Part shown: in pieces, positions 9,604 to 24,489 of the stretch
Position numbering within the stretch: position 1 is the first letter of the stretch
Layout: the number at the start of each line of letters is the position of its first letter
Source of the DNA: Cardiobacteriaceae bacterium
GTDB taxonomy: Bacteria > Pseudomonadota > Gammaproteobacteria > Cardiobacteriales > Cardiobacteriaceae
Reading direction: 5' to 3'
Assembly (NCBI GenBank): GCA_030529365.1
Contig: JAUMXB010000002.1
Location: 62,001 to 126,000 of the forward strand
DNA: 64,000 nucleotides
The notes under the pieces: generated by a model
Database searches by the model: none
What the model was told of the DNA's origin: nothing
What the model saw: only the letters and a program-made list of their open reading frames with translations
Made by a program: the position numbers and the translations under genes

Positions 9604-10611
9604 CTAGATTCTGCGGGGTTCTGCCTCTTCTTCGAATGCGTTATCCAGAACATGGCGGCACAAGCGCGGATGCCGCATGGCAGCGTTGCCAAGCGCATGC
9701 AGAAGGGCAAGGCAGTGTTCGCGCATTTCCTTGCGCCACTCGCGTGCAGCCTGTTCGAAGGCGGGATAGAAACGGGCACGAGCGCTTTTGCCCATGTGGC
9801 AGGCCTGGCCGCGTTTTGAGAAATCTTCCGGGCGCAGGGTGCGCTGATGGAAGAGATCAATGGCGAACTGATCGACATGCGGGCGCATGGGCTCGACAAG
9901 ATCGCAGGCAAGCGATTCCCGCCCGTGCGCCAGCCCGTGATAGAAACCGATGCATGGATCCAGACCGACCAGATGGATTTGTCGCACCATTTCAAAGTGC
10001 AACAGCGTATAGCCGAGAGAAAGCACAACATTGAACGGATCGCGCGGCGGCTGGCGATTGCGCTCATGGAACTCGAGACTTCCCGGGAGATAGCTGGCAA
10101 GCCCCGCAAAATAGGCGGCAGCGGCACTGCCTTCCACGCCGCGCAAGGCCGGGATGGAAACGACAGCGGCAATGCCCGCCAAAGCATTTTCCAGGCGCTT
10201 CAGGGGGCGATGAAGCGTATTGATGGCAACATGGGGCTGCTGCGCACAATGGAGCAGCAGCTGGTATTGCCGGTGAATCTTGGTCTCTACCCAGCTTTTT
10301 GCCCGCGCAAGGGCAAAAGCGGCATCCACGGAAAAATGGGCCTGGGCAAGGCGGCGCAAGGCATCCTTGCGGGCGTTTGGCATGAAAAGGGCCGCATGGC
10401 GGTTATGGCCGGAGAGCACCACAACGCCGATGCCGTGATCGCCCAGCTTGCCCAACACACTGGCGCTCAACGCCAGATCGCCCCTGATGCAGATGCGCTC
10501 AATGATGGCGAGCGGCATTGTGGCGCTGCGCTGACCGTTTTCGTGAAATACCAGCGCATTGCCAGCGATGTTCAGAGAGAGATTCTTGCGATCGATAATA
10601 AGCGTGCTCAT
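9604..10611 (-). CDS. cas1: CRISPR-associated integrase Cas1
   Basis: Metal-dependent DNA integrase that inserts new spacers; 335 residues. The N-terminal beta domain (LIIDRKNLSLNIAGNALVFH) is followed by the helical catalytic domain. Candidate metal ligands are visible: Glu in GVEGSAAAAYF near residue 160, His in CIGFYHGLAHG and Glu in DLVEPMRPHVDQ. All expected positions look intact, so it should be active. It starts 1 bp after the stop of the upstream cas2 and lies on the far side of the array from the effector genes but on the same strand. No reverse transcriptase fusion is present. Confidence 0.95.
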   Translation of the reverse strand: MSTLIIDRKNLSLNIAGNALVFHENGQRSATMPLAIIERICIRGDLALSASVLGKLGDHGIGVVVLSGHNRHAALFMPNARKDALRRLAQAHFSVDAAFALARAKSWVETKIHRQYQLLLHCAQQPHVAINTLHRPLKRLENALAGIAAVVSIPALRGVEGSAAAAYFAGLASYLPGSLEFHERNRQPPRDPFNVVLSLGYTLLHFEMVRQIHLVGLDPCIGFYHGLAHGRESLACDLVEPMRPHVDQFAIDLFHQRTLRPEDFSKRGQACHMGKSARARFYPAFEQAAREWRKEMREHCLALLHALGNAAMRHPRLCRHVLDNAFEEEAEPRRI

Positions 10612-10612
10612 G

Positions 10613-10894
10613 TCAGATCATCAAAAGCGGAGCATAAGAAAGGGCTTTGGCCTTGCCGAGGAGGCGGGGCTCGGTTTGCCCGGTCAGGCGGAAAACATGC
10701 AGGCGATCCGCTTCGGGATGCAGCGTGGCCGCCAGCACACCCAGCACATGGCGGAATTCCGCCTTCGTCAGCCAGCATTCAAACATCGACTGCTGCCCGC
10801 CGGAAGCATAGCCGCGCAACAGTTTGCGCGCCTGGCGCTGCCGGGCCGGACAGGCAATATCGTAAGCAATGATATAAGGCGTGCGTTCGGGCAT
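10613..10894 (-). CDS. cas2: CRISPR-associated Cas2 (first copy, proximal)
   Basis: A 93-residue Cas2 homologue: PYIIAYDIACPARQRQARK at the N-terminus with the Asp of AYDI, SMFECWLTKAEF as the second strand, and a C-terminal TGQTEPRLLGKA segment. The ATG at 10894 has a GAGGTGCC ribosome region; a longer open frame upstream to 11011 runs into repeat sequence and is not credible. It is followed at once by cas1. Low similarity to the other Cas2 at 9335-9595 suggests that the two may form a heterodimer or have separate roles, which is inference. Confidence 0.9.
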   Translation of the reverse strand: MPERTPYIIAYDIACPARQRQARKLLRGYASGGQQSMFECWLTKAEFRHVLGVLAATLHPEADRLHVFRLTGQTEPRLLGKAKALSYAPLLMI

Positions 10895-10929
10895 GGCACC
10901 TCGCCATAAAATGAAAAAATAGACAAAGC

Positions 10930-11048
10930 ACTTCGCGGTGGCGGAGCGCGTAGCACAAACTCCAATATTTTTTAAGCTTGTGTTGGGGTTCGCTCTGCGG
11001 CTCACCACCAACCTACTTCATTGTTCCGATTTTTATTGAGTTCGACTA
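10930..11048. repeat. decayed copy of the TATAGC-type dispersed element
   Basis: Two inverted halves (GGTGGCGGAGCGCGTAGCAC and TGTTGGGGTTCG with CTCACCACCAACCTAC) and an end ...GACTATAG resembling the terminal repeat of the complete copy. It lies upstream of the cas2-cas1-cas2 operon and may have displaced its promoter. Confidence 0.55.
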
Positions 11049-11054
11049 TAGATG

Positions 11055-11109
11055 CAAAAAACGCCCCTGCCCAGCATGACAAATTTGTTGTCGATCAGGG
11101 CAGGGGCGT
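11055..11109 (-). terminator. intrinsic terminator of the CRISPR array transcript
   Basis: A perfect 12-bp stem (GGGCAGGGGCGT / ACGCCCCTGCCC) with a 25-nt apical region is followed on the minus strand by six T. It lies about 140 bp beyond the degenerate last repeat, on the side expected if the array is transcribed leftward. The apical region contains the 14-bp motif TGACAAATTTGTTG and an inner GACAA/TTGTC stem, so this is an unusually elaborate terminator. Confidence 0.75.
11077..11090. promoter_or_regulatory. shared CRISPR-locus motif TGACAAATTTGTTG, site 1
   Basis: A 14-bp near-palindrome with the perfect core ACAAATTTGT, located in the apex of the array terminator. Exact copies occur at 14786-14799 and, inverted, at 24476-24489. 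It could be a protein-binding site that lets a regulator influence termination, or an inherited fragment of an operator. Confidence 0.5.
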
Positions 11110-11250: not shown

Positions 11251-13447
11251 GTCTTAATCCCTTGTATTGCAGGGATGTTTTTGAATCTCTATTTTAAGGC
11301 AGAATCCTACTCGCTCGCGTCCGTCTTAATCCCTTTTATTGCAGGGATGTTTTTGAATTGCGGTACGAACTCGAAGAGCTGGAACACTGGAGGTCTTAAT
11401 CCCTTTTATTGCAGGGATGTTTTTGAATTTTCCTGCTGTGGACGGAAGAGCAGGCAGCATTGTCTTAATCCCTTTTATTGCAGGGATGTTTTTGAATGCA
11501 AACAAAATGGAGAAACAACATGGAAATCAAGTCTTAATCCCTTTTATTGCAGGGATGTTTTTGAATCTTTCGTGGCAAAGAACGAGCGCGGCATCACCGG
11601 TCTTAATCCCTTTTATTGCAGGGATGTTTTTGAATGGAGTGGGACGATGACCCAATTGATGTTCTGGTCCGTCTTAATCCCTTTTATTGCAGGGATGTTT
11701 TTGAATCGCCCAGCAAACGTATGTGAAGCGCGACTGGTCGTCTTAATCCCTTTTATTGCAGGGATGTTTTTGAATGAATAATGAAAGAGAAGCTATAAGA
11801 GCCGAAAGGCGTCTTAATCCCTTTTATTGCAGGGATGTTTTTGAATGGAGGACGAATACAACGATGGCGCAAGAATGCCGTCTTAATCCCTTTTATTGCA
11901 GGGATGTTTTTGAATAATCCAAATAGGAGTGTCTATGCGTATAGTCAAGTCTTAATCCCTTTTATTGCAGGGATGTTTTTGAATGCTACGCTTGCGCGCA
12001 TCTGTTACCTGCTGATTTGTCTTAATCCCTTTTATTGCAGGGATGTTTTTGAATTTATCTACGAACGTAGATACTTTGAGTGAATACTGTCTTAATCCCT
12101 TTTATTGCAGGGATGTTTTTGAATGGCAAAGGAAAGCGAAATGACACGCGAAGAATTTGTCTTAATCCCTTTTATTGCAGGGATGTTTTTGAATAGAGAA
12201 GGCTGCGGCCTTCCTTAACGTGAAAATGTCTTAATCCCTTTTATTGCAGGGATGTTTTTGAATACCGATGCTTGAGCACAAAAAAGCCGCCCCGAGTCTT
12301 AATCCCTTTTATTGCAGGGATGTTTTTGAATACCGTTCCGCGAACAAGATTACACGGGGGATCTGTCTTAATCCCTTTTATTGCAGGGATGTTTTTGAAT
12401 TGTATTCCTCAATGAAGTTTCTTAATGCCGGTTGTCTTAATCCCTTTTATTGCAGGGATGTTTTTGAATCATTGTGGGCGACCGCGCATTGGCGCAAAAC
12501 ACCGTCTTAATCCCTTTTATTGCAGGGATGTTTTTGAATACAAACGCCGGATAGTCCGGCAAGGAGAAAACAGTCTTAATCCCTTTTATTGCAGGGATGT
12601 TTTTGAATCGTTACTATGCAGAGGTTCACAATGAAACATATTGGTCTTAATCCCTTTTATTGCAGGGATGTTTTTGAATCAAAGATTCGTGCGGAATCAA
12701 GACTAAAAGCTCTTGTCTTAATCCCTTTTATTGCAGGGATGTTTTTGAATGGATGTTCAAAGGAGCTATAAATAAGTTGGTATCTGTCTTAATCCCTTTT
12801 ATTGCAGGGATGTTTTTGAATGATTTCCAGAATTATTGGACGCTTTCATTCCCTGTCTTAATCCCTTTTATTGCAGGGATGTTTTTGAATTTCTAACAAT
12901 GATATATCAATCATGCCCAAAAATGTCTTAATCCCTTTTATTGCAGGGATGTTTTTGAATGAAATGAAAAAATCTATCCATCTTACCAACGAAGTCTTAA
13001 TCCCTTTTATTGCAGGGATGTTTTTGAATACAGATGAGGCCATAACCGGATACTATGACAGTGTCTTAATCCCTTTTATTGCAGGGATGTTTTTGAATGC
13101 ATCTTACTGGCATAGAACGTTCCTTCTTAATATGTCTTAATCCCTTTTATTGCAGGGATGTTTTTGAATCACATATGAATACAAAGAAGAGGAAGAAACC
13201 GCAGTCTTAATCCCTTTTATTGCAGGGATGTTTTTGAATTTTATCAACTTTACTATGCAGAGGTCAGAACATGTCTTAATCCCTTTTATTGCAGGGATGT
13301 TTTTGAATCTTGGGATTAACTGCACATCAGAAGCGTATCTGGTCTTAATCCCTTTTATTGCAGGGATGTTTTTGAATAAGAAATCCTCGTCATGCTGAGC
13401 TCACTCGCTGGGTCTTAATCCCTTTTATTGCAGGGATGTTTTTGAAT
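11251..13447 (-). CRISPR. CRISPR array, 32 repeats and 31 spacers
   Basis: Repeat length is 36 bp; spacers are 32-36 bp. On the plus strand each repeat begins GTCTTAATCCCTTTTATTGC and ends AGGGATGTTTTTGAAT. The inner ATCCCT / AGGGAT forms a 6-bp hairpin with an 8-nt loop. The repeats at 11323 to 13412 are identical by eye; only the first (11251) differs, with T to G at position 14, which marks the old, leader-distal end. On the minus strand the repeat ends ATTAAGAC, like the usual 8-nt 5' tag of type III crRNAs, so the array is transcribed leftward from a leader at about 13450-13660, toward the terminator at 11055-11109. All spacers can be read as plus-strand coding sequence in one frame. Confidence 0.99.
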
Positions 13448-13662
13448 AGTCTGGGGTGTTTTTTTCTATCATGATCATTGTGTTATATATGTGGTTTCCA
13501 AGTTTTTTCATGTGCGAATAGCTAAAGCAGATTTACTGTGAAAAGGTGAGGGTATTGTAGTGGTGCGGGATGAGGTGTCAATGTTTAAAACGGAAGGTGT
13601 GTTTTGTTTTTGATGCTCTGCCAAAGGGCGCAGAGGATTCTTGGTGAGAAAATGGTATGTGG
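13448..13662 (-). promoter_or_regulatory. CRISPR leader region
   Basis: AT-rich 215 bp between the newest repeat and the stop codon of the neighbouring unknown gene. A TATATA hexamer on the minus strand near 13484-13490 could be the -10 box of the array promoter, but no good -35 box is visible. A small hairpin CTCTGC / GCAGAG (minus strand, near 13615-13640) follows the upstream gene. The orientation is supported by the degenerate repeat at the opposite end. Confidence 0.6.
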
Positions 13663-14199
13663 TTATGAGTTGCGATCAATAAGTTTGCCATTGATAACAT
13701 GAAGGCCGTTGCCCAAGTTGCCGTCGCAGCTTTCTTCGATATATTGAAGGAAGGTTGGCCAGATGTTATAGCTGGTATTATGCGCGGTATGGCTGTTGTC
13801 TTTTTCAAGGCTTATGGAGTTATCAGTTTTCATGGAGGAAGGTTCTTCCAGAATTTCCCAGGGGGGTATGGGATTGGTCAGGTAATGCCTGTGTTCTGCG
13901 GAGTCGAGGCCGTAGTAAGCGATGATGACGTCTTCTACTGAGAGTTCGGTGTAGTTTATGTAGTCTTCTATGGCATAGCCGTAACGAATGTAGTCGATGT
14001 AGCTTCGTCTGTTGCTGCCGTAGAGTTCCCAGATTTCGTCATTTGCGTAGCGTTGTGAGATTATCCATTTTTTGCCGTTTTTAAAATAGTTTGCGCCACC
14101 AGGAACATTTTCGTCTGCTACTCGCTGGTAGCCAAGCCAGCGGGCTATAAGGATGCTGTGATATTCGTAGTCGTGCAAGAGGCGTGGGGAGCTGGTCAT
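13663..14199 (-). CDS. unknown protein, paralog B, between type III genes and the array
   Basis: No known family recognised. It has 178 residues from the ATG at 14199 (a TTG at 14229 would add 10). It is a diverged paralog of the gene immediately upstream: both share ARWLGYQRVADEN / AQWLGYVRVEDKN, YFKNGKKWI / YIKNGKKWI, YIRYGYAIEDYI / FIRHGYAIEDYL, a YYGxDS element, and a C-terminal IEE-C-G-LG-G block. It lacks membrane segments and a signal peptide, and is acidic. A low-complexity Ser/Asp/His insertion (about residues 125-145) separates the two conserved parts. GC content is visibly lower than the cas genes. Its place, directly next to the leader and on the cas strand, suggests an accessory role, but cargo status is possible. 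Confidence 0.75.
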   Translation of the reverse strand: MTSSPRLLHDYEYHSILIARWLGYQRVADENVPGGANYFKNGKKWIISQRYANDEIWELYGSNRRSYIDYIRYGYAIEDYINYTELSVEDVIIAYYGLDSAEHRHYLTNPIPPWEILEEPSSMKTDNSISLEKDNSHTAHNTSYNIWPTFLQYIEESCDGNLGNGLHVINGKLIDRNS

Positions 14200-14256
14200 G
14201 ACTCGCTTTTCCTGATTATTGATTGGCAAAGAGATTTCAGAGGAATAGAAGGTGTC

Positions 14257-14718
14257 TCATGGACGATCTTCGTAGATGGAGCCTCCGGAAATACGCATGC
14301 CGTCGCCAAGATAGCCGCCGCATTCTTCTTCGATAAGGCTCATGAAGGCGTCGTAGCTTCTGTTAAGCATATCTTCAAAATCTTCTTCATGTTGTGTGCG
14401 CTGTTGCTCAATGCGTTCAGCGCGTTGTGCCATGTAGGCGCGGTATTGTTCGGAATCCGTGCCATAGTAGATTTGGAGCATTTCTTCAATGGAGGTGTTG
14501 TGGAAGAGAAGGTAGTCTTCAATAGCATAGCCATGGCGGATGAAGTCGAAATGGCAGGTGGCACCCAGCTTTTTGCCAAGTGCTTCGAGGTTGTAAATCC
14601 ACTTTTTACCGTTTTTGATGTAGTAGGCACCCATGAAGGCATTTTTGTCTTCCACGCGCACATAGCCCAGCCATTGGGCTTGTTCGATGCTGGATTGGTA
14701 GTCGCTGTGGAAGCTCAT
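14257..14718 (-). CDS. unknown protein, paralog A, between type III genes and the array
   Basis: A 153-residue soluble protein of no recognised family. Order of visible parts: an N-terminal helix with WLGYVRVEDKN, a GAYYIKNGKKWI strand pair, a FIRHGYAIEDYLLFHNTSIEEML helix block ending IYYGTDSEQY, a charged helix (about residues 95-115, many Glu/Gln/Arg) and a C-terminal LIEEECGGYLGDGMRI tail. It precedes its paralog by 57 bp. One of the three TGACAAATTTGTTG sites lies 68-81 bp upstream of the start, close to the spacing seen at cas10, so the pair may share control with the CRISPR operon. The function cannot be given. Confidence 0.78.
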   Translation of the reverse strand: MSFHSDYQSSIEQAQWLGYVRVEDKNAFMGAYYIKNGKKWIYNLEALGKKLGATCHFDFIRHGYAIEDYLLFHNTSIEEMLQIYYGTDSEQYRAYMAQRAERIEQQRTQHEEDFEDMLNRSYDAFMSLIEEECGGYLGDGMRISGGSIYEDRP

Positions 14719-14785
14719 GGTCGTGGTGCATAGGAGTAGTTGCGATGGCGCTATTCTGGCAACGTACGGGCGGGCTTGTCTTTTC

Positions 14786-14799
14786 TGACAAATTTGTTG
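14786..14799. promoter_or_regulatory. shared CRISPR-locus motif TGACAAATTTGTTG, site 2
   Basis: An exact copy of the 14-bp motif, 68-81 bp upstream of the paralog A start codon and downstream of the csx2 gene. The core ACAAATTTGT is perfectly palindromic. It is a candidate operator for expression of the unknown gene pair. Confidence 0.5.
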
Positions 14800-16103: not shown

Positions 16104-16886
16104 TTAAATGGCCTGGATATGAAAGCGTTTGAGGCTGACGCCCATGCGGGTCATGTCTGTGGCGCTGTATTCGCTGCCGCGCTTATCGGCTTTCTGTGGG
16201 ATTTGCAGGAAGTAGAAAGCGGCTCCACGGGCGCAGATGGCAGCAGCGAGGTGCACGGGGAGGGTGCCGAGTACGGTGTCGCCGGGTTGGATGTCTTCAG
16301 GGTTGAGGTGGGAGACGATGTGGTCGATGTGCCAGCCGGGCTGTTGTTTGATCCAGTCGATGGCGCCCGGGTGGCGGGAGATGAACCAGGTTTTGCCTGA
16401 GTGGGTTGGTTGGGGGCGGAATTTGTCGAGTTCGTCGGGGTGATCAAGGTAGATGGGCAGTTCGTTGCGTTCGCCGTTGCGCACGGCGGCAACGGCACCA
16501 AGGAATTCGGGTGTGGCAAGGTAGGGGATGTTGTAGCTTGCGGTGCTGCTGTCGCTCAGGATGCCCTTGATTTCCTGGCGGGTGCACAGGGTGCGGGGGA
16601 TGGCGATGCAGTGGCTGGCGGCGGGGGCGTTGCGCAGTTGCAGGCAGAGGGTGACGGTTTCGCGGTCGAGTTGTTGGCGGCGGCGCTGGGTGAGGTAGTT
16701 GGCGAGGGAGAAGTAGAGGGTGAGGGGGAGGACGAAGACGTTGGCGATGCTGAGGGTGATGTCGATGAAGCCGGCATGGCTGCGGTAGAGGGCGCCATGG
16801 CGCCAGGCGACTATCAGCAGGAACAGGTAGGGAATGACGATGAGGATGGCGGCTGTTAACAGGGGGCGGCGCGGTTTTTCAGGCAT
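16104..16886 (-). CDS. csx16: membrane-anchored Csx16 (VVA1548-family) fusion protein
   Basis: A 260-residue two-part protein. Two hydrophobic helices (about residues 11-30 and 42-65) are followed by a linker of roughly 95 residues containing a SYNIPYLATPEFLGAVAAV segment. The C-terminal 98 residues are a recognisable Csx16 domain (TWFISRHPGAIDWIKQQ, VSHLNPEDIQPGDTVLGTLP, AAAICARGAAFYFL). Csx16 usually occurs alone as about 100 residues in type III loci, and recent work groups it with ring nucleases that destroy cyclic oligoadenylate. The membrane part is unusual. It overlaps the end of cas6 by 8 bp, so expression is coupled. Either a membrane-tethered off-switch or a membrane effector is possible; activity is inferred only. 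Confidence 0.85.
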   Translation of the reverse strand: MPEKPRRPLLTAAILIVIPYLFLLIVAWRHGALYRSHAGFIDITLSIANVFVLPLTLYFSLANYLTQRRRQQLDRETVTLCLQLRNAPAASHCIAIPRTLCTRQEIKGILSDSSTASYNIPYLATPEFLGAVAAVRNGERNELPIYLDHPDELDKFRPQPTHSGKTWFISRHPGAIDWIKQQPGWHIDHIVSHLNPEDIQPGDTVLGTLPVHLAAAICARGAAFYFLQIPQKADKRGSEYSATDMTRMGVSLKRFHIQAI

Positions 16887-21793: not shown

Positions 21794-24418
21794 TTATTTC
21801 TCTCTCAGTAAATAGAAGTGGTTGAACAGGGGAATGCGGAAATGGCTGCCCAGTTTGGCAATGCCGTTTTGCTGGAAGGCTTCGATGAGCTGGGCGTAGG
21901 CGTTGTCCTTGGCGCTTAGCTTCTGGCTGTTGACGAAGCGGCGGGTTTGGTAAAAAAAGCGGCTGCGCCACATGCTGGCCTGAATATCGCCTGTTTTTTC
22001 TTTCTGCGCCAGATCGCAGAAGTGCAGCATGTTGTAGAGATAGGCGCTGCTCAGGCCGTAGCTTTCGCGCAAGGCATCAATGCGCGCAAAGGATTCCTGC
22101 AAGTCAGGCCAGCTTTCCCATGGCACGGTTTCACCATAAAGCGACAGGGCGTTTTTCTTTCTGTCGCCTGCGGTGTAGGCCTTGGCATCTTCCAGCGCTT
22201 CTTCCCCGTATTGGGAGAGTTTGGGTAGCGGCAGGCCGGGCTTGCTGATGGCGATGCCGGCGCTGAAGGTGATGTCGGGGTTTCGGGCGACATAGGCGGC
22301 AAAGTGAGTGCGCATGTCGGCAGCAAGCTGCTGGATTTGCCGCCACGGGCCGATCATGAAGAAGTCGTCGCCACCGGCAAAAACGGTATAGGTATCGGGA
22401 TATTTTTCTGCGCAGCGGGCAGGCAGCCAAAGGGTGAAGAAGTGGTTCATCTGCCGCGAGAGTCCGGCCATTTTCGCGAATGTCGGTTCGGCAAGGCCGC
22501 GCTGGAAAATGGTGCCGAGGTTGTCAACATCGCCTTTCAATGTGGCGATGGCCACTTTGCCAAGATAACGTTCACCGTCTTTATCCCGGTAGCGTTCTTC
22601 GCAGGCGAGGTGATTGAAAGTTTTGATGTCGCCAGGATTGCCGGCGCGTTCCTCTGCGGGCAGGACGGCGTATTTTTCGCCATCCACATGTTCGCCGAAG
22701 CGGGGGACATAGGCATTGATGAAGCGCCGGGCGTAGCCGTGCCACAAGGTATCTTCGCCGGAGTTGGGCAGGGAGAAATCCCAGCAGCGCAGCAGCTGCC
22801 CATTGCGTGCCGCTTCGCCGAAATGACCGGTGATGTCATCAGCACCCGTGAAGGCGATATGGAAACCGAAGATGGGCAGTAGCAGGCGTTGTGTTTGGCT
22901 GGTGTCGAAGATGGTTTCGGCGTTGTCAGAGACCAGCAGGCGGTCTTTTTTGGTGAGGTGTTCGCCGATGGTGATTTGATCGGCGGAAATTTTTGCCAGT
23001 TTGCGGCCGTCTTTTTCCGTATCGCTTGCAGGGAGATGGTGATCGTAAGGGCAGGCACCGAAGGGATATTCGGCGGAGAGTACGGTTTGGGCGTCGCCAG
23101 TGAGATTGAAGCGCTGGAGTTTGGCGGTTTCCAGTACGGCAAAGGACTGGGTGATCAAGTCCTTGAAGCGCTTTTTGTCGATAAAGTCGTTGCAGCTTGC
23201 TTCCTGGGTGGCAAGGCCGAGGGCGACCTGGCCAAAGCAGTGATCGAGGAACCATTGGTTGATGTCGCCACGTACGGTTTCGACCGCCTTGCGGACGGCT
23301 TCGGTATTGGGCGCGACGATCATGAATTTGCCGGCGGCATTCAGGATTTGCGAAGTGGGTGGCAGCTGGCAGGCGCGCAGGATTTTGAGGGCGGCCAGTT
23401 CGGCAAAGAGCGAGACCTGGAAGGATCGGCCGCGCAGCAGTTTGGCCGCCTGTTTGTTGGTATCGCTACCGGCGGCAAAGATGAAGTTCTGGATGCCGAA
23501 GAAATCGCCCTGGATGAGGAGGATTTTTTGGGTTTCCCAGTCGCTGCGTTCGCGCAGGCGGGCAATGGCATCATTGTCCGTTTGGCCTTCGGCATCGTGC
23601 CATAACCACAATGCAGTAGCGAAGGCAGCAGTGCTTTTGCTGTGATCATAGAGCGAGACTTCTGCCTTGCTGCCAAAGGCGGTGGCAGAGGGGATGGCAT
23701 GGGTAAAGCATTGCCAGAGAGTATCGAAATGATCCAGCCACAAATGCCAGTTTTGGTGGTGGGATTCGGGGATTTGCTCAAGGCCTTTGATGAAGGCTTG
23801 CCAGAGGGAGAGGTATTGCGCCTGGGCGGTTTTGTTGTCGGCTGGTTCGCCTTCTTCGCGCAGTATGGGGAAAACACTTTTCGGGGAGAGTGCTTGCAGG
23901 GGGTAGCAATATTTGATTTCGCCAAGTGATTTGGCCCTGGAGTCATCATGAAGACGGATTTGCTCCAGAAGCGGGAGGAGGCGGGCACGATAGTGGCTTG
24001 GCGCTTCGTCTTGCTGGTTGTACTGCTCGAATTGCTCGCGTTCAAAGCCGGAAGCGACACGGTCAGCAGTGGCGATGATCCATTGCAGGAAGGTGTCCGG
24101 GCGATGGTGCATGGCGGCAGCATTTTGCAGGGAGTCGGTCTTGTCTTCGCCTGCATCACGGGAGGCAAAGGGCGTCATGTCGCCGCGCACCAAATCGGGC
24201 AGGTTTTTTTCGATCAGATCCCAGGCGAGAGCGGTGTAGGCAGCGTGGACATGACTGTAATAACGGAATTGCCCCTGCTCGTCCTTGACGCGGGGGCAAT
24301 ACATTTGCTTGTGGATATCCAGAGTATTCTTGTCGAAATCCAGACGGGCGCGTTCGGCAAACTTGCCCAGATCGTGCAGAAAAGCGGCAAAGGCTATCCT
24401 GCTGGCAGCATTGTGCAT
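21794..24418 (-). CDS. cas10: Cas10/Csm1, type III-A large subunit with HD nuclease and cyclase domains
   Basis: An 874-residue signature protein. The N-terminal HD nuclease motif HDLGKF (H15, D16) is intact, as is an HVHAAYTALAW His motif further on, so single-stranded DNA cleavage is expected. The second palm domain carries FAGGDDFFMIG with GGDD at about 682-685, the site for cyclic-oligoadenylate synthesis. Its product should activate the Csx2 and NE0113 proteins encoded nearby. The ATG follows an excellent AGGAGG ribosome site. A TATACT -10 box on the minus strand near 24445-24450, and the 14-bp motif further upstream, mark the operon promoter. Confidence 0.97.
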   Translation of the reverse strand: MHNAASRIAFAAFLHDLGKFAERARLDFDKNTLDIHKQMYCPRVKDEQGQFRYYSHVHAAYTALAWDLIEKNLPDLVRGDMTPFASRDAGEDKTDSLQNAAAMHHRPDTFLQWIIATADRVASGFEREQFEQYNQQDEAPSHYRARLLPLLEQIRLHDDSRAKSLGEIKYCYPLQALSPKSVFPILREEGEPADNKTAQAQYLSLWQAFIKGLEQIPESHHQNWHLWLDHFDTLWQCFTHAIPSATAFGSKAEVSLYDHSKSTAAFATALWLWHDAEGQTDNDAIARLRERSDWETQKILLIQGDFFGIQNFIFAAGSDTNKQAAKLLRGRSFQVSLFAELAALKILRACQLPPTSQILNAAGKFMIVAPNTEAVRKAVETVRGDINQWFLDHCFGQVALGLATQEASCNDFIDKKRFKDLITQSFAVLETAKLQRFNLTGDAQTVLSAEYPFGACPYDHHLPASDTEKDGRKLAKISADQITIGEHLTKKDRLLVSDNAETIFDTSQTQRLLLPIFGFHIAFTGADDITGHFGEAARNGQLLRCWDFSLPNSGEDTLWHGYARRFINAYVPRFGEHVDGEKYAVLPAEERAGNPGDIKTFNHLACEERYRDKDGERYLGKVAIATLKGDVDNLGTIFQRGLAEPTFAKMAGLSRQMNHFFTLWLPARCAEKYPDTYTVFAGGDDFFMIGPWRQIQQLAADMRTHFAAYVARNPDITFSAGIAISKPGLPLPKLSQYGEEALEDAKAYTAGDRKKNALSLYGETVPWESWPDLQESFARIDALRESYGLSSAYLYNMLHFCDLAQKEKTGDIQASMWRSRFFYQTRRFVNSQKLSAKDNAYAQLIEAFQQNGIAKLGSHFRIPLFNHFYLLREK

Positions 24419-24439: not shown

Positions 24440-24489
24440 GAGGAAGTATAACGAATTTTAATTTTTACGAAAGGGCAACAAATTTGTCA
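24440..24489 (-). promoter_or_regulatory. promoter of the csm operon with shared motif site 3
   Basis: On the minus strand CAACAAATTTGTCA reads as TGACAAATTTGTTG at 24489-24476. It is followed by a weak -35 (TTTCGT), a 16-bp spacer and TATACT (24450-24445), then about 25 bp to the AGGAGG site. The motif sits just upstream of the -35, a position typical of an activator site or of a repressor that overlaps it. Confidence 0.55.

Follow-up and report, generated by a model that had tools for sequence, protein, structure and literature searches.

Two paralogous small proteins of a type III-A CRISPR locus appear to share a control site with the CRISPR machinery

The locus studied here raises the question of what two small genes of no named family are doing between the leader of a CRISPR array and an RNase gene of a type III-A system. 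In the window, a stretch of 64,000 nucleotides from a Cardiobacteriaceae bacterium, this system comprises cas1-cas2, the array, genes B and A, a CARF-HEPN gene, a Csx23-like/Csx16 fusion, cas6, the csm genes, cas10 and a NE0113-family CARF gene. The minus strand carries cas1 (9604-10611), cas2 (10613-11011), the array (11251..13447), gene B (13663..14199), gene A (14257..14718), the CARF-HEPN RNase gene adjoining gene A (TIGR02221, 14859..16088), the Cas10/Csm1 gene (21794..24418) and the NE0113-family gene (PF09623, 24574..25677, in a reading frame open to 25782). The orientation of the array is our own reading of its repeat, whose handle-like ATTAAGAC end falls on the minus strand, which would place the leader at 13447-13662. 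Genes A and B lie on the cas strand, with the CARF-HEPN gene on one side and the leader on the other, as a preliminary description of this DNA had placed them. In the fusion protein of the same locus (260 aa, 16104-16886, minus strand), PADLOC recognizes a membrane part resembling Csx23 and a ring nuclease of the Csx16 type, so that an effector and the factor that switches it off form one protein; a similar fusion is encoded in the relative G009 (L023 16441-17292).

Gene A encodes an acidic protein of 153 aa and gene B its paralogue of 178 aa, which carries a disordered linker; for gene B the ATG at 14199, preceded by AGGA, is the preferred start, while a TTG at 14229 would give 188 aa. In a whole-genome search the two proteins aligned along 142 residues with 42% identity (E 2.2e-23), a paralogy far beyond chance, and no third copy of this type was found in the 2.3-Mb genome. 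The preliminary description gave a faithful account of the pair itself: both reading frames are on the minus strand at the place indicated, the shared motifs WLGYxRVxDxN, Y(I/F)KNGKKWI, IRxGYAIEDY and YYGxDS and the C-terminal C-G-LG-G block are all present, and the GC content is lower than that of the window (0.489 for A and 0.464 for B vs 0.574). Its statement that the proteins match no known family also agrees with our searches, which gave no credible match in Pfam, NCBIfam, PADLOC or PHROGs, none in a fold library, and none in the PDB by sequence, where a profile of 11 members likewise gave nothing significant.

The strongest evidence for a link between these genes and CRISPR is a 14-bp motif, TGACAAATTTGTTG, with the palindromic core ACAAATTTGT. 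With up to one mismatch allowed, it has three matches in the 2.3-Mb genome, at 11077, 14786 and 24476, all of them in this locus, and its reversed control has no match in the genome; the locus-specific motif previously reported upstream of the first gene is thus verified. The predicted operators lie before cas2-cas1 (11077..11090), before gene A (14786..14799) and before cas10 at the head of the csm operon (24476..24489), and they are followed by the -10 hexamers TATAGT (11045-11050, at 26 nt), CAGAAT (14753..14758 on the minus strand, a weak one, at 27 nt) and TATACT (24445-24450, at 25 nt), respectively. Genes A and B therefore appear, on the evidence of this shared site, to be co-switched with the CRISPR machinery.

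The geometry of these promoters proved to be fixed. For the 17 sites whose core has no more than one mismatch, all read along the direction of the locus, agreement with TATAAT shows its peak at a distance of exactly 26 nt past the 14-mer, with a mean of 3.88 of 6 positions vs an all-spacing mean of 1.95 (sd 0.42); none of 5000 AT-matched draws reached this peak, and the opposite strand of the 17 sites shows no such peak. The operator centre therefore lies near -45, a position that would suit an activator, and the -35 boxes of these promoters are poor.

Members of the A/B family are found in type III-A-linked loci of four genomes from two bacterial groups, namely the window, Cardiobacterium hominis, G1212 and G1310, and the other three also have the ACAAATTTGT core, in most cases with a -10 hexamer exactly 26 nt downstream of it. 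In C. hominis NCTC 10426 (G004), which belongs to the same family as the window's genome, the homologue (39-40% identity) overlaps the start of the NE0113 gene and is separated by about 1.1 kb from an array of some 32 repeats, across which there is a cas2-like ORF; the core is upstream of the homologue's operon, and Cas10 is 834 kb away. Between this array and the homologue, in the same direction, is a gene for a 129-aa protein without a Pfam family (L006:15997-16386, minus strand), and the csm locus of C. hominis contains two tandem Card1-like genes (L024 17510-18640 and 18812-19945), the second with an interrupted reading frame. G1212 and G1310 (2.0-2.3 Mb; our guess is that they are Pasteurellaceae) belong to the order of G440 and carry the homologue inside their type III-A loci, in the order csm genes, cas6, csx16, Card1, NE0113, homologue, 281-284-aa protein and cas2-cas1, with an SSB gene between the homologue and the 281-aa gene in G1310. 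The core stands there before csx16, the homologue, the 281-284-aa gene and the SSB gene. The SSB gene and the 281-284-aa protein, which has no Pfam family, are encoded at L055 9295-9726 and 9802-10647 and at L054 8517-9371, each with its own ACAAATTTGT site.

The preliminary description had proposed that the pair is an undescribed CRISPR-linked component, for example a partner, inhibitor or immunity factor of the HEPN RNase. The CRISPR link is real, given the type III-A-linked loci of three further genomes and the operator that gene A has in common with csm and cas1-cas2, and it is not exclusive, as the homologues discussed below indicate. The specific tie to the HEPN RNase is not supported. 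Three of the four CRISPR-linked genomes (G004, G1212 and G1310) have no TIGR02221 CARF-HEPN gene, and the gene occurs without the A/B family in G009 (intact) and G007 (apparently broken), so that co-occurrence speaks against a partnership and a HEPN-specific role is disfavoured.

A NE0113-family protein, in contrast to the CARF-HEPN RNase, is present in all four CRISPR-linked genomes, and these NE0113 proteins group together in the sampled tree. They match PF09623 and TIGR02584, that is, a CARF domain without an effector domain, and NE0113 has been predicted to regulate transcription directly (PMC4012209). Counting gives only a modest significance for the co-occurrence with the A/B family: searches of 395 genomes in the order of G440 found NE0113 in 22, the A/B core domain in five and both in two (P 0.027), and in the window's family the corresponding numbers are three, two and two of 12 (P 0.045). 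More telling is where the core occurs. Two NE0113 type III loci that lack the A/B family, L097 and L098, contain two and three exact cores (0.03 expected in each), and the core is missing from all twelve comparison loci, which mostly hold non-CRISPR family members or members of the tail module; NE0113 is therefore a better fit for the DNA-binder than A or B, and ACAAATTTGT may be the operator of this CARF regulator. In L097 (6588-7377) and L098 (9218-10007) a pair of small genes with a site upstream is convergent with NE0113.

Outside CRISPR, the family keeps varied company. In G440, a homologue directly follows rdrA-rdrB of a RADAR system on the same strand (L032:7105-7440) and faces a type I restriction gene; it is possibly a third RADAR gene in that genome. 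STM3752, from the SPI-3 region of Salmonella, lies near a PtuA-like (Septu-like) ATPase and either RhuM or, in one subspecies, AbiGi, and further homologues occur near SymE in a P4-like island, past the integrase at the edges of prophages, and in the genomes G1276 and G1385. Neither SymE nor AbiGi proved to be a constant partner, the neighbours varying from locus to locus. Homologues lying mostly away from CRISPR had been named in advance as evidence against a CRISPR role, and the neighbourhood survey bore this out by half, with about six independent non-CRISPR loci that mostly adjoin other defence genes. Since some relatives stand next to unrelated anti-phage systems, the proteins look like general-purpose defence accessories.

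The family is rare. Apart from the window, one of 96 close and class-level relatives has a homologue; 369 class-level and 399 phylum-level genomes gave none besides the window's own; in the order of G440 it was matched in six of 395 genomes, one of them by the C-terminal module alone; the Salmonella copy was the only homologue in the phage and plasmid collections; and two E. coli searches with DNA of other family members found nothing. On the best tree the CRISPR-linked members fall into two groups, and a single clade is not firmly rejected (p-AU 0.095).

What kind of proteins these may be was approached through their models and alignment. Structure prediction and structure-based searching, suggested in the preliminary description, yielded AF2 models and no fold for A: the model of A, built from five sequences (pLDDT 85, pTM 0.59), has an alpha/beta core, a helix of 44 residues and, at the C-terminus, three strands, that of B has the same order of secondary structure plus the disordered linker, and Foldseek with the model of A returned nothing below E 0.1 from the PDB and BFVD. 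The core domain, recognized in the 11-member alignment and in profile matches by its invariant A, G, D, K, W-I, Y and Y, contains the residues A14, G18, D24, K35, W40, I41, Y64 and Y69, a set that is not suggestive of an active site. Most members have a clear C-terminal YLSDGMWLxPDG module; it has diverged in A and B and is absent from the G1212 and G1310 proteins. Because of this absence, and because elsewhere it caps unrelated small proteins, the core is taken as the constant part of the family. A module of this kind, of about 35 residues (LYxxLxxxxGxxVYLSDGxWLxxDG), ends otherwise unrelated small proteins of islands and phage contigs (L052 10714-11223, L056 6250-6528, L101 2602-3099 and L107 1234-1572). 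All five proteins measured are acidic (pI 4.2-5.2), and one homologue has a weak match to MADS5 (1.8e-4). Being small, acidic and without a conserved catalytic set, A and B are probably non-catalytic binding proteins.

Taken as a whole, the explanation that we favour, with some reserve, is that A and B are accessory proteins of gammaproteobacterial defence loci which here belong to a type III-A regulon run by NE0113. On finding target RNA, Cas10, the proposed source of the signal, would make cyclic oligoadenylate, which would be sensed by the NE0113 CARF protein; this would act at the ACAAATTTGT operators centred near -45 to turn on csm, cas1-cas2 and A-B, and the induced A and B proteins would then bind some target without catalysis, most likely in a second-line antiviral or modulator function. 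As relatives adjoin RADAR, restriction and other systems, this function would not be tied to one effector. We put forward more tentatively, as something that may well turn out otherwise, the wider proposal of a second-messenger-driven transcriptional branch in bacterial type III-A systems, in which NE0113 would be a cyclic-oligoadenylate-responsive activator that recognizes ACAAATTTGT 26 nt from the -10 and induces csm, the adaptation genes, SSB and a small-protein family found also beside RADAR and restriction systems. Counting against the favoured explanation are the -10 of gene A, among the weakest of the set, the lack of an operator at the C. hominis csm operon, which is away from the homologue locus, the lack of a helix-turn-helix by Pfam in the NE0113 C-terminus, and the absence of the core from most other sampled NE0113 loci, so that the sites would have to differ among NE0113 groups.

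Other readings of the same observations were considered. A and B might protect the cell by blunting the type III effectors, as an antitoxin or off-switch would, for instance if they bind a nuclease or sequester the second messenger, and their small size, acidity and control in common with csm, as well as the relatives near the toxic systems RADAR, SymE and AbiGi, speak for such a role. However, the effectors vary by locus (CARF-HEPN and Csx23-Csx16 here, Card1 elsewhere), a ring nuclease is already supplied by Csx16 (PMC12409355), and the neighbours of the non-CRISPR homologues have no toxin in common; we consider this reading unlikely. Less probable still is that the pair has no role in type III immunity and was captured next to the array, as hitch-hiking cargo of defence islands or as the anti-defence genes of some mobile element. 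The lower GC, the rare and patchy occurrence of the family and the homologues at prophage edges and in the P4-like island speak for this; against it are the locus-specific operator common to A-B and the cas operons and the fact that the family turns up together with NE0113 and type III genes in each of two bacterial groups. The preliminary description had itself allowed that the pair might clearly belong to another mobile cassette, and because of the operator we do not favour this as the sole explanation.

It is also conceivable that A or B is the DNA-binding regulator of the locus and acts at its own operator, auto-regulation being common and each of the four family-bearing CRISPR loci having the sites. 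Two NE0113 loci from which the family is absent have the sites as well, however, and the non-CRISPR loci of the family lack them; the proteins are also acidic and gave no match to a DNA-binding fold, and we regard this reading as very improbable. The account of A and B as accessory proteins under NE0113 control is the one retained here, and they may be best described as a CRISPR-regulated, not CRISPR-exclusive, accessory family.

So far, type III CRISPR signalling has mainly been understood from enzymes on which the second messenger acts directly as an activator. With an operator mapped and its promoter geometry fixed, a transcriptional output of this signalling in bacteria becomes open to direct test, and its candidate regulon can be named; the operator is the most useful product of this work, as it turns the NE0113 prediction into an experiment. 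The analysis also flags an unannotated family of small proteins, called here the STM3752-like family, which is repeatedly found next to genes of type III CRISPR, RADAR and restriction systems and of prophage edges and includes STM3752 of Salmonella, a protein that appears in few papers and is named there merely as a locus.

Among the closest known systems, STM3752 belongs by sequence to the family of A and B (E 9e-7 to 1e-6 with A), with the core motifs in common and a C-terminal module that has diverged in A and B, and it differs from A and B in its shorter linker and its location outside a CRISPR locus. Like the type III ancillary proteins Csx1/Csm6, Card1, Csx23 and the ring nucleases, A and B are products of accessory genes of the same loci; unlike in them, neither profile nor fold searches detect a CARF, SAVED, HEPN, nuclease or membrane domain in A and B. 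For NE0113 the counterpart, compared by description, is the archaeal CARF-winged-helix protein Csa3, also a CARF protein without an effector domain, for which control of cas and adaptation genes through palindromic sites has been proposed (PMC9704534, PMC8844856). A review from 2022 names archaeal Csa3, a transcriptional regulator, as the sole experimentally characterised non-nuclease CARF effector (PMC9704534); NE0113 differs from it in being bacterial and in belonging to a type III-A locus.
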